The translations under genes and the position numbers were made by a program. A model generated the notes under the pieces. It saw only the letters and a program-made list of their open reading frames with translations, was not told the DNA's origin and did not search any database. Positions 1,749 to 49,641 of a stretch of DNA of 64,000 nt are shown here, piece by piece. Numbering within the stretch: the first letter of the stretch is position 1; each line of letters starts with the position of its first letter. This DNA is from Marinilabiliaceae bacterium (GTDB lineage Bacteria > Bacteroidota > Bacteroidia > Bacteroidales > Marinilabiliaceae): contig JAEINY010000006.1 in the NCBI GenBank assembly GCA_016342595.1, positions 1 to 64,000 on the forward strand, in the 5' to 3' direction.

Positions 1749-2187
1749 AGTCATCGGAAGCCACTACAAAACCATGCTTCGCCATGAATGCTTCATACTC
1801 TTGTTGCCAGGTCTGCTGTTTATGGTGTTGCACCTGATTCATAATATATCTTTCAACTCTACTTCTGTGCGATTCACTCACCGAAGCCGCGTAGTACCGG
1901 TGTGACCATTTGAATTTGTCCTTCAACAATTGTTGTTGATTCATCCAATGAGCCGACTCTCCTTTCACGTGCTGCATAATCTTATCCAAAGTCTGTGTGG
2001 ATTTAAGCCGAATCAAGGCATGCAGATGATCACTGACACCATTTAGCACTTGCACTTGAAAGCCTTTATTAAGGGACGTCTCAATGATATGCCTTATCAA
2101 TAAATCTTTCACGCACTCGGATTGCATCATTGGTTGACGTCGCTTTGTTCCCCAGACAGCATGTATCCATATTTTCACATATGACAT
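1741..2187 (-). CDS. REP-associated tyrosine transposase (RAYT, IS200/IS605 TnpA-like)
   Basis: This 148-residue protein has the Y1 HUH transposase fold signatures. They are an N-terminal IHAVWGTKRR strand, the metal-binding HUH motif as HLH (H54, H56 in VSDHLHALI), and a catalytic-tyrosine helix with Y114 in ERYIMNQVQHH. Family members cut and join single-stranded DNA at hairpin ends. RAYTs are domesticated relatives linked to REP palindromes. Here the gene is bracketed by two ordered sets of palindromes, and its stop codon lies inside one of them. The frame is intact and all catalytic residues are present, so it may be active. It sits between the 991-residue PPDK_N protein and the altered GDH, all on the minus strand, and probably split an older gene pair. 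Confidence 0.85.
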   Translation of the reverse strand: MSYVKIWIHAVWGTKRRQPMMQSECVKDLLIRHIIETSLNKGFQVQVLNGVSDHLHALIRLKSTQTLDKIMQHVKGESAHWMNQQQLLKDKFKWSHRYYAASVSESHRSRVERYIMNQVQHHKQQTWQQEYEAFMAKHGFVVASDDWD

Positions 2188-9542: not shown

Positions 9543-11833
<2,291 letters not shown>

Positions 11834-23026: not shown

Positions 23027-23060
23027 AGACCTCTCCCTTTTTTAAGGTGAGGGGTCTTTT
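23027..23060 (+). terminator. Terminator of the DUF6261-type gene
   Basis: A 9-bp stem with one G-T pair (AGACCTCTC with GAGGGGTCT) is followed by TTTT on the plus strand. Confidence 0.6.
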
Positions 23061-23274
23061 CGCTGGATGCATCCTGACTAACTTCAAACTGCGGGGCTGA
23101 AGGCTTTTCACTCTTGAAATTCCCCTAATCTATGGCGGCGAAGTCATTGCAAGCCTGCAAAAGCATCAATCTTGCGTGCTGATGCTATTTCAAAGATGCA
23201 GAAGCCCCAAACCGGCGGGCGCAAGCTTTTGCATTAGTGAAACAGGTTCAAACCGAGGGGCTCCAGATTACAAA

Positions 23275-23306
23275 AAACCCGAAAGCTCTTTGCGAACTTT
23301 CGGGTT
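23275..23306 (-). terminator. Terminator of the tRNA-Arg gene
   Basis: A 10-bp perfect stem (AACCCGAAAG/CTTTCGGGTT) with an 11-nt loop lies 8 bp past the tRNA 3' end, with a T run on the minus strand. Confidence 0.8.
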
Positions 23307-44244: not shown

Positions 44245-46257
44245 ATGAACAAACCTACCCTTATTGAAAAAGACATCTGGCTCAAACCATTTGAATCAGA
44301 TATTATTTCACAACATGAGCGCTTCAAGGACAAACTGGATGAAATAGAACAGTTCTCCGGAAGTCTGAAAGCCTTCGCCAGTATGCACCACCAGTATGGT
44401 TTACACCAATCAAGCGATGGGTGGATTTTTAGAGAGTGGGCTCCCAATGCCACCTCTGTTTTTTTAACCGGTGATTTCACCAATTGGCAATTGCTCGATT
44501 CGTTTAAACTGAATCGATTGGAAGAGGGCATTTGGGAGATACATTTACCCCCAAAAGCCATCAAACATGGCGATAAATTCAAACTGCATATTTTTTGGGA
44601 AGGCGGCGATGGCTATCGACTTCCCGCTTATGCCAACAGAGTCATTCAAGATGACACAACGCTGGTATATGACGCCCAGGTATGGGCTCCTTCTGCTCAC
44701 CATGTATGGACGGATCAGTCTTTTCAACCAACAAGCGATATGCCCATCATTTATGAAGCGCACATCGGTATGTCTTCGGAGGAAGAAAAGGTAACCAGCT
44801 TCAAAGCGTTTACTGAAAATACACTTCCCAGAATAAAAGAACTCGGCTACAACACCATCCAGTTGATGGCCATCCAGGAACATCCTTATTATGGTAGTTT
44901 TGGATATCACGTATCGAACTTCTTCGCTGTCTCATCCCGCTTTGGTACTCCTGAAGAATTAAAACAACTCATTGACACAGCTCATCAAATGGGTTTAACC
45001 GTTATCATGGATATTGTCCATTCTCATTCCGTTAAAAATGAGCTGGAAGGGCTCAGCTTATTCGATGGGAAAGACGATCTGTATTTCTACGGTGGCGAAA
45101 AAGGGCAACATCCAGCCTGGGATAGTCGTTGTTTCAATTACGAGAAAAGGGAAGTTTTGCAGTTCCTGTTATCAAACTGCATGTATTGGCTGGAGGAATA
45201 TCACTTTGACGGTTATCGATTTGATGGAGTAACCAGCATGCTATACCACGACCATGGCCTCGGCAAGAACTTTGTGGAATACGCTGATTATTTTTCCGGT
45301 GCAACAGATCCCCATGCCCTTACCTATTTGACACTGGCCAACCACTTAATACACCATCTTAAACCTTCGGCATTAACCATTGCAGAGGAAATGAGCGGTT
45401 ATCCAGGCATTGCCGGAGAAATAGAAGCGGGTGGCATTGGCTTTGATTATCGATTATCAATGGGGATACCCGATTTCTGGATAAAACTCATCAAGGAGCA
45501 GGCAGATGAAAACTGGAATGTGGCACAAATCTACCATGAATTATCGCAACATCGGGTCGAAGAAAAAACCATCTCCTATGCCGAGTCACATGATCAGGCA
45601 CTTGTAGGCGATAAAACCATTATTTTCCGATTGGCCGATAAGGATATGTATGAAAAAATGTCCATCCATACCCCAAGTATAATCATTGACCGCGCCATAG
45701 CCTTACACAAGATGATCCGGCTCATTACGCTGGGCACCAGCCCGGGTGGTTACCTCAATTTCATGGGAAATGAATTTGGTCATCCTGAATGGATTGATTT
45801 TCCGCGCGAAGGCAATAATAATTCCTACCATTACGCCCGTCGGCAGTGGTCGTTGGCCGATCATCCGGATTTAAAGTATCAATACCTACAGGCCTTTGAT
45901 AAAAAAATGATTCAGTTGGTTCGTGCAACAAACTTTATGGCTTCGCCCAATTATAAACACCTCGACCGGGAAGAAGATCAGGTTTTGGCATTTTCAAGGG
46001 GAGAATATTTGTTCGTTTTTAATTTTAGTCCCGATCGCTCCTATACCGATTATGGCATACCCGCATCTGCCGGAAAATATGAACTGGTACTGTGTACTGA
46101 CGAACCAGCATTTGGCGGATTTGATCGCGTAGACAAGAGCTATATGTATTATTCTCAGCAGTTGCCTTTAGATGCCAAACAACATCAATTGTTACTCTAT
46201 TTGCCAGCACGAACGGGTTCCGTTTTCGAAAAGAAACACATACGCAGTGTACACTAA
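44245..46257 (+). CDS. glgB: 1,4-alpha-glucan branching enzyme (GH13)
   Basis: The 670-residue protein introduces alpha-1,6 branches into glycogen. An N-terminal CBM48 (about 50-150, REWAPNATSVFLTGDFTNW) precedes the GH13 barrel: MDIVHSHS, nucleophile aspartate in DGYRFDGVTSM, acid/base glutamate in TIAEEMSGYPG, third acid in SYAESHDQAL, and a C-terminal beta domain. It lies 5 bp after kdsB, probably one transcript. The rest of the glycogen genes lie 3.4 kb further on the other strand. Confidence 0.95.
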   Translation: MNKPTLIEKDIWLKPFESDIISQHERFKDKLDEIEQFSGSLKAFASMHHQYGLHQSSDGWIFREWAPNATSVFLTGDFTNWQLLDSFKLNRLEEGIWEIHLPPKAIKHGDKFKLHIFWEGGDGYRLPAYANRVIQDDTTLVYDAQVWAPSAHHVWTDQSFQPTSDMPIIYEAHIGMSSEEEKVTSFKAFTENTLPRIKELGYNTIQLMAIQEHPYYGSFGYHVSNFFAVSSRFGTPEELKQLIDTAHQMGLTVIMDIVHSHSVKNELEGLSLFDGKDDLYFYGGEKGQHPAWDSRCFNYEKREVLQFLLSNCMYWLEEYHFDGYRFDGVTSMLYHDHGLGKNFVEYADYFSGATDPHALTYLTLANHLIHHLKPSALTIAEEMSGYPGIAGEIEAGGIGFDYRLSMGIPDFWIKLIKEQADENWNVAQIYHELSQHRVEEKTISYAESHDQALVGDKTIIFRLADKDMYEKMSIHTPSIIIDRAIALHKMIRLITLGTSPGGYLNFMGNEFGHPEWIDFPREGNNNSYHYARRQWSLADHPDLKYQYLQAFDKKMIQLVRATNFMASPNYKHLDREEDQVLAFSRGEYLFVFNFSPDRSYTDYGIPASAGKYELVLCTDEPAFGGFDRVDKSYMYYSQQLPLDAKQHQLLLYLPARTGSVFEKKHIRSVH

Positions 46258-46292
46258 AATAAAAGGAGGGTCTCCAAAAATGAAAAAGTTGC

Positions 46293-46316
46293 CACCAAGT
46301 CACTAAATCACAAAGA
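46293..46316. repeat. Three 8-bp direct repeats (CACCAAGT, CACTAAAT, CACAAAGA)
   Basis: Three consecutive octamers share CAC at their start and AA at positions 5-6. Similar CACNAAG series are often seen in intergenic DNA of Bacteroidetes; no function is known to me. Confidence 0.6.
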
Positions 46317-46341
46317 ATACTCGAAGGTTATTTTTCAAAGT

Positions 46342-46539
46342 GTGATCCGGAGCCGAAGCACGTGTGATGTGGATATAAACCACAGGTGATCTTGGAGCAA
46401 ATCACGTGTGATGTGGAGTCAAAGAAGGCGTGGTTTAGCTCAAAGGGAAGCGTGATTCCAAGGCATATCACACGTGGTTTTAGGCAAAATGACGTGTGAT
46501 ATCAGGTGCGATGACACGTGGTTTTGTAGCCTGCAGAAC
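46342..46539. repeat. Nine-unit array with exact 22-bp period and GTGAT/GTGGT anchors
   Basis: GTGAT or GTGGT begins at 46342, 46364, 46386, 46408, 46430, 46452, 46474, 46496 and 46518, each step exactly 22 bp. The pentamer is GTGAT in units 1-4, 6 and 8, and GTGGT in units 5, 7 and 9. The 17 bases between anchors differ from unit to unit. Exceptions are a tendency to A around the middle and to CACGT or GACAC before the next anchor. It is not a CRISPR array: no long identical repeat is present. Confidence 0.85.
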
Positions 46540-46662
46540 TTTTTAAGTTCACTGGTAATAATATCAAGGTATCGGAGTAGCTATAAACAAAAGGCCCTGT
46601 CAGAGTTAAAGGTTGGATGATTCAACCCATTCCGGCTTGTGGTGCTTTTGTTGATTACACCA

Positions 46663-46731
46663 CGGGTTTCACCCGCGGCTATTAACAATCAATCCCTTCA
46701 GTATTATTCTTTTACAACCACGAAGTGGTTG
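46663..46731. repeat. Two REP-type hairpins
   Basis: CGGGT-TTC-ACCCG (46663-46675) and CAACCAC-GAA-GTGGTTG (46715-46731) are short perfect hairpins with a 3-nt loop. Both resemble REP units found with IS200-like transposases in Bacteroidetes. Confidence 0.6.
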
Positions 46732-46801
46732 AATGTTAATGTTTTGAATTATCACCAACCACTAATTGAGATAGAACCAAACAAAAAGAGACAATCATCA
46801 T

Positions 46802-46879
46802 CTACTAAGGTTTAAAACCTGGAAATAAGGTTTAAATGATAATCAATAAACCTTATTTCTTAAATACAAACCTTAGTAG
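46802..46879. repeat. Nested inverted repeat (78 bp)
   Basis: Outer arms CTACTAAGGTTT (46802-46813) and AAACCTTAGTAG (46868-46879) are perfect. Inner arms GAAATAAGGTTTA (46822-46834) and TAAACCTTATTTC (46847-46859) are also perfect. All arms share AAGGTTT. It lies 67 bp past the stop of the minus-strand receptor gene and could stop or protect its mRNA. Confidence 0.85.
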
Positions 46880-46945
46880 TGTATGATAACCGACTGCCAA
46901 ATACCTTATTTTAAAATAAATCGATCGGCAATTAGAATACAACTA

Positions 46946-49387
46946 CTATTTTTGATTATCAAATGTGTAAACCACCTTAAAGGAAAGATAAGGCTCACTG
47001 GCGTAATGACCATTCTCGTAAAAATCGACATCATGCCCTCGAAAATCATACTTATAAGAATTAAAAATATTTGACCAGCTTAAGGTCACTCGCCAGGTCC
47101 GATCATTAAAAGCTTTATTAAAAGCCAGATTCGAATAGGCATAACCATCTTTTTTGATCTGGGCTTTCACGGTTGGGCTGTTATAACGTACATCCCATTT
47201 TACCATCATGGAATGCGGCAATCTGAAAGTATTGTTAAAACGAGAATCCGCCTTAAATTGATTTTCTGTTTTTTGATTCTGTTCCACATCAACGTCTAAC
47301 TGATATGTGAATAAACTGGTCGAAAGATTGGCATTCCACCAGGGGAAAATATCCACTCCCGTCATCAGCTCCACTCCATAACTCCATGAAGTTCCTACAT
47401 TCTCAGGTGTTGCTTCCATGATATTCTCACTGGCTGGCCGATAATAATCCTGAATGACATTCCCGGTTCGGCGCATGAATCCCTCAACAGCTACAAAATC
47501 TTTATCCCAGGAACGTTTATAATTCAATTCAAAAGCATCTGAAGTGGCCGGCATCAGACTCCCATTACCAGTATAAAATGAAAAAGGGGTGGCATAAACG
47601 CGCATGGGTATTAAATTCCAATAGCCCGGCCGGTTTATCCGACGCGAATAACTGGCGGACAACTGGGTAACATCAGATAGTTTATACATGGCGTGAAAAC
47701 TTGGGAAGAAATCTGTAAATGTTTCCCGATCCGGGAATTCAGCCCTCCCATTTACCTCTGCATAACTGTAATCAGATTTGCGTTCTGTATGCTCCACCCG
47801 CATACTCAATTGATACTTCAATTTATTCCACCTACTTTTAAAGATGGCATATCCGGCATAAATATCCTGTTTAAAATCAACCTCCTGATCAAGCGGTTCG
47901 GAAGAAAATGGATGGAAATCACCTTGTTCATCATAAGTACCACTTGCCGAAGCAACCACCGGTATTTTCTCAGAATCAAAATTCAACCCTGTTTCCAGGT
48001 TACTATTATCGCCCAAGGGCCGTTTATAATCGATCTTTGCAAGAATATCAAACTCATCGCTCTCGCTATTTTTAAAACCCTGATAAGTGATGGGATCATC
48101 ATACCTGGTATCCTTTTGATCCTTTTCCATGTCGACCAAATAACCCGTCAACTTAAGAAAAGAAGAAAATTGATGACTTCTTTTCTTATCAAAGGCGTGT
48201 TTATAAGTTAATGAACTCCCCCAATAACTGTAGGTCATATCCAGAATAGAGTTCATCCGGTAACCTTTTTCGGGATCCACCTGAATCCCATCAACCAGTT
48301 TTCGCTCCTCAATATCCCACTCCTCTTCATGATCGTTTTTACAGGTTAATGGTTGAAGAAAAAAGGATACATCTACAAAATCTTTATCCGATAGATCATG
48401 ATTCAGACCAAATACCAAAAAACTTGATAAAGCCCCCACTTTTTTTGTTTTATCAGAATGGGTGATGTAAGTCTGATTATCCTGATAGACCTCGCGATAC
48501 TTTTCATAGTCATACTTACTTCGAACATCATATCCATATTTCCAGAGCAAATGCCATCCCCCCCGATCGCCTTTCTTATCAACTGACAGGTTCCATTCAT
48601 AGCCTTCACGTGTATTCACCATGGCACCCGTACTGATGTTGAACCCTTCCAAACGATTTTTTTTAAGGATCACCTGGATGATTCCCGCTGTACCCTCCGC
48701 ATCATATTTGGCAGATGGATTGGTGATCACTTCAATCTGGTCAATACGATCAGCCGGTATCTGCCTTAGTTTCTCTTCTCCCTGGAAGGTGGGATTACCA
48801 TTAATAAACACTTTAAAGGTTCCGTCACCACGATAAGTTAATTTCCCTTCAAAATCTACTTGCAAGGAGGGAATGTTCTCCAGCAAGTCCATCCCCACAT
48901 TAGCACCGGGGAAACTACCGGCATCAATCACCTTCCGATCAACTTTATAATTAATCGCAGATTTGGCCGATCGTACGGTTATATCCTCCAGGTTTTCCGC
49001 CAGCATTTGCATGCGGATCTCTCCAACATCACGAACACCTCGTTGCAATAATATATCATCTACAACAACAGACTGATACCCCACAAAACTAAGTTTTAAC
49101 TGATAGTTACCTTGCCTGGCATGTTTGATAACAAACTGACCACTATCATCGGTAACGGCTCCTAATAGTATAGTGGTATCCTTAGGAGAGCTTAGGATGG
49201 CACTGGCATAAGCCATGGGTTCACCGGATAAATCGTGGATAAGTTTACCCACCAACTCACATTTTTGGGCAAAAATAATTCCTCCAACGCTATTCAAAAG
49301 AATAATAAGAAATGGAATTCTAAAAAGTACTTGTCGATTACAATGTCTTTTTAAAAAAGAACTTTGATTGATTTCATTAGATTTCAT
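46946..49387 (-). CDS. Outer-membrane beta-barrel receptor with N-terminal carboxypeptidase-regulatory-like domain
   Basis: With the ATG at 49387 the product has 813 residues. A signal peptide (about 20-42 of the mature start, IPFLIILLNSVGGIIFA) precedes a carboxypeptidase-regulatory-like domain (about 43-130), a TonB-receptor plug (about 140-235) and a long beta-barrel of OMP_b-brl_3 type. No SusD-like lipoprotein lies next to it, so it is not a classical SusCD pair. The ligand cannot be read from the sequence. It lies between glgB and the alpha-glucan operon, which could hint at oligosaccharide uptake, but such solitary barrels also take up metals or peptides. Confidence 0.87.
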   Translation of the reverse strand: MKSNEINQSSFLKRHCNRQVLFRIPFLIILLNSVGGIIFAQKCELVGKLIHDLSGEPMAYASAILSSPKDTTILLGAVTDDSGQFVIKHARQGNYQLKLSFVGYQSVVVDDILLQRGVRDVGEIRMQMLAENLEDITVRSAKSAINYKVDRKVIDAGSFPGANVGMDLLENIPSLQVDFEGKLTYRGDGTFKVFINGNPTFQGEEKLRQIPADRIDQIEVITNPSAKYDAEGTAGIIQVILKKNRLEGFNISTGAMVNTREGYEWNLSVDKKGDRGGWHLLWKYGYDVRSKYDYEKYREVYQDNQTYITHSDKTKKVGALSSFLVFGLNHDLSDKDFVDVSFFLQPLTCKNDHEEEWDIEERKLVDGIQVDPEKGYRMNSILDMTYSYWGSSLTYKHAFDKKRSHQFSSFLKLTGYLVDMEKDQKDTRYDDPITYQGFKNSESDEFDILAKIDYKRPLGDNSNLETGLNFDSEKIPVVASASGTYDEQGDFHPFSSEPLDQEVDFKQDIYAGYAIFKSRWNKLKYQLSMRVEHTERKSDYSYAEVNGRAEFPDRETFTDFFPSFHAMYKLSDVTQLSASYSRRINRPGYWNLIPMRVYATPFSFYTGNGSLMPATSDAFELNYKRSWDKDFVAVEGFMRRTGNVIQDYYRPASENIMEATPENVGTSWSYGVELMTGVDIFPWWNANLSTSLFTYQLDVDVEQNQKTENQFKADSRFNNTFRLPHSMMVKWDVRYNSPTVKAQIKKDGYAYSNLAFNKAFNDRTWRVTLSWSNIFNSYKYDFRGHDVDFYENGHYASEPYLSFKVVYTFDNQK

Positions 49388-49641
49388 AGAGATTCGGCAT
49401 ACAAACACATCCGTGCATGTTAATACATACCGGATATATCCATTCGGTTTGAATACTAAGGTTTAATTGGTATAAAAAACCCGTTTATTAATTTTCCCGA
49501 CAATAAATGCCTTTTAGTAAAGCTTGTATAAATTAAAAGTATAAAAAAAAATAATACTACAATAAAATAGATGAATTATTTTAAATAAAATCCTCTTAGT
49601 ATATTTATTGATAAGGTCTGTAATTTGCCCTCACAAATAAA

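Follow-up and report, generated by a model that had tools for sequence, protein, structure and literature searches.

An intergenic array in a Marinilabiliaceae bacterium, in which the pentamer GTGRT recurs nine times in exact 22-bp phase, belongs to a family of dispersed copies that descend from one ancestral element and in which part of each unit is strongly constrained. We tentatively read this array as a row of candidate protein-binding sites on one face of the DNA, a reading that has a close rival in a minisatellite-like origin.

Phase and anatomy of the array

In the window, i.e. the whole 64-kb stretch of DNA analysed, GTGRT is found at 46342, 46364, 46386, 46408, 46430, 46452, 46474, 46496 and 46518, which equals 46342 + 22k for k = 0-8 with all steps of 22 bp and zero deviation, and confirms the nine exactly phased anchors described in the initial annotation. 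The pentamer reads GTGAT in six of the nine cases and GTGGT in three. A comparison with randomized sequence had been set beforehand as a check on this phasing, and the triple pattern GTGRT-N17-GTGRT-N17-GTGRT was found seven times in the window and never in 100 dinucleotide-preserving shuffles. A standard tandem-repeat finder detected part of the array only (46340-46423, 67% matches).

Conservation extends beyond the pentamer and takes the form GTGRTTT-N6-AAAYCAC-NN. Column counts were based on 83 units, taken in phase from nine arrays of the genome, the consensus of which is GTGRYTYKRANNMAARYSAM-RY; about 14 of the 22 columns are conserved, in a degenerate manner, and mean unit identity is 54%. 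The right half is looser, with CAC in 44, GAC in 12 and GAA in 8 of the 83 units. Across unit borders the sequence AAAYCAC-NN-GTGRTTT forms an imperfect asymmetric inverted repeat with centers every 22 bp, and about six free bases per unit are left between the inverted repeats. The dinucleotide at the center is AC, GT or GC in 66 of 83 units, and AT was never seen at this position, against about 12 occurrences expected from the column frequencies of the same 83 units. In the window array the last conserved base is 46525, within GTGGTTTT, and 46526-46539 is flank. Because 22 is not a multiple of three and no long reading frame runs across the array, the latter is non-coding, and a coding repeat is ruled out.

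Table 1. Features of the array, its neighbors and a second array in the window
Feature	Position	Strand	Remarks
GTGRT/CAC phased array	46342..46525	+	8 full 22-bp units and terminal GTGGTTTT; exact phase, unit alignment with other arrays
Unit -9, GTGATCCGGAGCCGAAGCACGT	46342..46363	+	Similar to unit GTGATCCGGAGACGGGTCACGT of the C32 array
Unit -4, GTGATTCCAAGGCATATCACAC	46452..46473	+	Position common to arrays on C405, C63 and C257
Unit -3, GTGGTTTTAGGCAAAATGACGT	46474..46495	+	Position common to arrays on C405, C32, C63 and C257
Right array end, GTGGTTTT	46518..46525	+	Invariant across seven aligned arrays; flank beyond without conservation
GCGAA array	9980..10201	.	20-21 bp steps; another theme of the two-turn class
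glgB, glycogen branching enzyme (670 aa)	44245..46257	+	Upstream neighbor, outside the element; open reading frame and relatives
Outer-membrane beta-barrel / TonB-dependent receptor-like gene	46946..49408	-	Convergent neighbor, outside the element; Pfam PF14905

Copies in the same genome

Throughout the genome (6.76 Mb, 461 contigs) the triple pattern has 28 matches, compared with 0 for a reversed control pattern. The related arrays are dispersed and number at least 12; a sequence-only model adds three loci, on C392, on C12 and a second one on C32, and C296, which matches the pattern but has a different unit, was left out of the count. Seven arrays, when oriented with GTGGTTTT last, align unit by unit with zero internal gaps, and no similarity past the array ends was found among these seven copies. 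Unit -3 (GTGGTTTTNNGCAAAATGACGT) and unit -4 (GTGATTCCNNGGCATATCACAC) are found again at the same place in several of the aligned arrays. In-register divergence between the seven homologous arrays amounts to 1.9% of comparisons in the GTG columns, 29% in CAC and 54% in the spacers, with no phase break across runs of 8-11 units, and spacer identity between arrays is 43% in register versus 30-35% out of register. The in-register alignment and the column-specific divergence lead us to conclude that a single ancestral element was copied to give these arrays and that part of each unit is strongly constrained. The proposal that spacing is held while the sequence between anchors changes is supported by the same figures, which disagree with the even divergence across columns of a plain decaying minisatellite.

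Even within the window array alone the unevenness between columns exceeded that of neutral simulations (p=0.004 star, 0.014 coalescent), in a test that is biased upward because the arrays were recognized through their conserved columns. Compensatory changes, either for a hairpin within the unit or for a palindrome across the border, showed no convincing excess over shuffled partners (one of nine within-unit pairs gave p=0.016), and covariation was likewise not found in the arrays of relatives; the base preference therefore acts on each column separately.

Genomic context

The array lies just behind glgB, as first described, starting 84 bp after the stop codon (46257) between convergent genes. 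All loci examined are intergenic, with few overlaps, which involve short predicted reading frames. Of 25 arrays of the genome, carrying GTGRT and other themes, 9 lie between convergent, 11 between codirectional and 5 between divergent genes, compared with 36, 132 and 50, respectively, for other gaps of at least 250 bp, which reveals no promoter bias. The arrays lie closest to the 3' end of a gene in more cases than to a gene start, array strand is inconsistent relative to neighboring genes, and no functional theme was found in the flanking proteins scanned at 26 loci; such 3'-end positions and themeless neighbors argue against a promoter operator.

To the right of the window array, REP-like palindromes (ACCACGGGTTTCACCCGCGG, CAACCACGAAGTGGTTG) at 46655-46735 resemble those flanking Y1_Tnp genes on contig C446. 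A long imperfect inverted repeat, with 41-nt arms that are 76% complementary and 12 nt apart, is located at 46794-46887, in the gap that separates the array from the convergent receptor gene.

Relatives in other genomes

The same frame, filled with other half-site words, was found in 19 of 71 genomes and 6 of the 21 genera of the family. The words are ACATG+ACCAC in G008, ACCTA/ACCTG+ACCAC in G011, ACCAA/ACCTA in G019 and AACAC/ATGTA in G061, G071 and G077. Weaker matches of the form AAAAC-N8-GTTTT-N4 were found elsewhere in Bacteroidia, and several of the weakest look like chance. In the genus of G061, G071 and G077 some steps are of 21 bp, mixed with 22 bp, which qualifies, for this other genus, the strict unit length noted initially.

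In G011 the MTHFR-LamB gap carries six units, whereas the related species G035 and G082 keep the same gene pair with zero units, and thus the arrays are dispensable there. Orthologous arrays follow an HU-HIG gene in G061, G071 and G084, representing two genera. In two species the arrays (L200:7584-8060 and L205:5610-6128) are located directly 3' of the gene for the HU-HIG DNA-binding protein and 5' of a PAAR gene, and the G084 array is found at the same HU-HIG position. Homogeneous 21-bp minisatellites also occur, of the same form in a distant genome (L243) and of other themes in the family relative G018. In the latter, near-identical 21-bp minisatellites (ACCGGAAATCGTCGTCCCGAT, ACCGGCACTCGTTAGCGAGCT) are present at many loci (contigs C98, C178, C75 and C277) and may represent an early stage of the degenerate arrays of the present genome.

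A wider class of arrays with two-turn units

A period-blind scan, which disregards sequence and covers periods of 9-71 bp, returned 26 non-coding degenerate arrays in 1.39 Mb of this genome and none in shuffles. By autocorrelation about 24 of the 26 have units of 20.5-22 or 41-42 bp, the exceptions being 23 bp and 7/14 bp, a result that strongly supports the initial suggestion of a class of such elements, with units of two or four helical turns. The GTGRT family accounts for about 8 of the 26 arrays, and the themes are unrelated: GTGRT/CAC; GCGAA; ACCGGAAG; GTAGCGATA; ATCCGT-ACTT; TTCCTAA; TGACTT-TTCCTTC; and others. Arrays overlapping long reading frames have varied periods, often multiples of three. 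The same kind of scan found no two-turn peak in the relative G008 (4 non-coding arrays in 400 kb), in other Bacteroidota (7 in 596 kb) or in E. coli (1 in 300 kb). The GCGAA theme is abundant in G019 (30 matches versus 0 for the control) and the ACCGG theme in this genome (39 versus 0), where the arrays in total are estimated, by extrapolation and not by a count, to be of the order of 100.

The GCGAA array noticed earlier near 10 kb is real (Table 1); it contains one extra GCGAA within a unit and flips to TTCGC near 10118, and the same flip was observed in GCGAA arrays on C62 and C134. At 23037-23282 a weak, non-coding degenerate array with a 41-bp unit may also belong to the class with units of two or four turns. 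Within the wider class, some arrays resemble plainly decaying minisatellites (L322, L342, L332).

A putative row of phased protein sites

For the GTGRT family a row of phased sites fits best, since the window array combines a constant helical phase with base-specific constraint. The binding of a protein along two helical turns had been suggested for the array, and we may hypothesize that each site would be the 16-18 bp imperfect asymmetric inverted repeat described above, that site centers would stand 22 bp, about two helical turns, apart, and that a dimeric or oligomerizing DNA-binding protein might sit side by side on neighboring sites. Such side-by-side binding would keep the spacing and the half-site bases and leave the spacer free. 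Several observations are in accordance with this proposal, namely a phase far above chance both in the genome and in the window, the contrast between GTG columns and spacers in runs that never lose phase, the maintenance of the frame with genome-specific half-site words in several genera, and the orthologous arrays kept after the HU-HIG gene. The absence of compensatory changes, of promoter bias and of an AT center, as well as a window array that folds no better than its own shuffled units, point in the same direction. The rows occupy scattered intergenic sites, in most cases close to a 3' end, which suggests that they serve an architectural or nucleoid function rather than that of a promoter operator.

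Against binding it may be argued that a single sequence-specific protein leaves the period common to unrelated themes unexplained, that the three arrays of the wider class named above resemble decaying minisatellites, that 21-bp steps are tolerated in one genus, and that the G011 locus is missing in G035 and G082. The sharing of one period by many themes favors either several proteins, a protein that reads helical phase, or duplication with a two-turn step.

Minisatellite, RNA and spacer-storage alternatives

The last of these leads to the close rival of protein binding, a self-spreading or neutral minisatellite-like element, which we consider possible, if somewhat doubtful. Here duplication or copying would yield units of about two turns whatever their sequence, copies would reach intergenic sites and decay, and the period would reflect the manufacture of the units and not a bound protein. 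The many unrelated themes at 20.5-22 or 41-42 bp agree with such an origin, as do the dispersal of the copies and their varying presence or absence. The initial annotation had also mentioned a plain minisatellite, and on this point the evidence is divided: the homogeneous 21-bp minisatellites of L243 and G018 speak for it, but in this genome the constraint is sharply unequal between columns of homologous units, and long runs remain in phase despite the divergence of their spacers. Moreover, the arrays were found to be accompanied by neither a flanking element body nor terminal repeats nor a transposase.

An element acting at the RNA level is unlikely, also at the window locus. Transcribed hairpins would in this case end transcription, be bound by an RNA-binding protein or stabilize the preceding message at its 3' end, and convergent and 3'-end positions are indeed common. 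Dinucleotide shuffles fold less well than the arrays themselves (mean z -3.8 for the arrays), as is expected for any array with alternating inverted half-sites, but the window array folds the same as its own unit-order shuffles (z 0.1), no terminator-like site, i.e. stem plus T run, was found in 46200-47000, array strand varies relative to neighboring genes, and covariation is absent both within units and across borders. Rfam gave no match near a gathering score. Folding does depend on unit order in G061, G071 and G077, whose arrays gave z of about -2 to -3. Behind the HU-HIG gene of G061, G071 and G084, cores one and two are almost exactly reverse-complementary and T runs follow them, so that a long terminator-like hairpin is formed; a local RNA role is therefore possible in those relatives.

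The storage of spacers, by fixed-length units added one by one, is highly improbable: a short conserved core and a variable filler of fixed total length recall such arrays, but the filler is common to separate arrays in register, and the phage and plasmid sequences searched, a check proposed with the idea, gave no match to the array, which together speak against a spacer store, while the core is itself degenerate and some six freely varying bases are too few for target addressing. Likewise, the near-identical repeats of about 20-50 bp and the unique spacers matching mobile DNA that define CRISPR arrays were not found, and adjacent cas genes were absent from 26 loci but for one G008 array. Of the three arrays found in that relative, one has a Cas1 gene at a distance of about 0.8 kb (L195:8854-9834).

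Comparison with known systems and significance

Iteron and partition-site arrays likewise consist of protein sites about two helical turns apart that are bound side by side, but they form a single origin or centromere adjoining the gene of their own protein, whereas the present arrays exist in many chromosomal copies with no common neighbor gene. The nearest described element is BrickBuilt, a minisatellite MITE of Porphyromonas gingivalis with about 19 copies per genome, in which dispersed, strictly intergenic tandem arrays without spacers are built of one 23-nt consensus unit and accompanied by leader and tail segments with terminal inverted repeats (PMC4596501). Our arrays, at 12 or more loci of the genome, share with it the dispersed intergenic tandem arrangement in Bacteroidales and a unit near two helical turns (PMC4596501). 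In contrast, no terminal inverted repeats, leader or tail, nor any other flanking body, were found with the seven aligned copies, the units are very unlike one another, the half-sites stand in inverted orientation, and one period is common to many unrelated themes.

REP/BIME palindromes associated with RAYT (Y1) transposases are also dispersed extragenic palindromic DNA of bacteria (PMC3733652), but the window array keeps an exact tandem phase and lacks a constant GTAG/CGTC tag. None of the five Y1_Tnp genes of this genome is flanked by GTGRT arrays, their flanks bearing other palindromes (GGGACTTTAGTCCC, CCACGGGTGAAACCCGTGG). One RAYT-like Y1_Tnp gene in the window (1834-2178, minus strand) has its own flanking palindromes (GGGACTTTAGTCCC, CCCCAGACTGAAGTCTGGGG), and a 17-bp tandem repeat is located at 1555-1637. 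Intergenic heptamer direct repeats such as TAACTGA have a near-perfect 7-nt unit (PMC4679880), and heptamer repeats were also reported with SPADE (PMC6344855). They resemble our arrays in being intergenic tandem repeats that are widespread, have no known role and in part occur in Bacteroidetes, and 21 is a multiple of 7, but neither 22 nor 20.5 bp can be composed of whole heptamers. A literature search that reached few subscription journals returned no report of genome-wide two-turn degenerate arrays.

A single array is thus a further form of dispersed intergenic tandem repeats, whereas the period common to unrelated themes may be new in kind. More speculatively, this lineage may carry of the order of 100 intergenic arrays per genome, of unrelated sequences and one two-turn unit length, owing either to a chromosome-organizing system that senses helical phase or to an as yet undescribed process that generates tandem DNA two turns at a time. 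Intergenic repeats of bacteria are commonly classified by their sequence, and a physical spacing common to arrays becomes visible only in a period-based scan. Selection on the spacing would make the arrays the mark of a further level at which DNA and protein are organized in Bacteroidales, and a mutational cause would instead suggest a novel way of duplicating DNA in steps of two turns.
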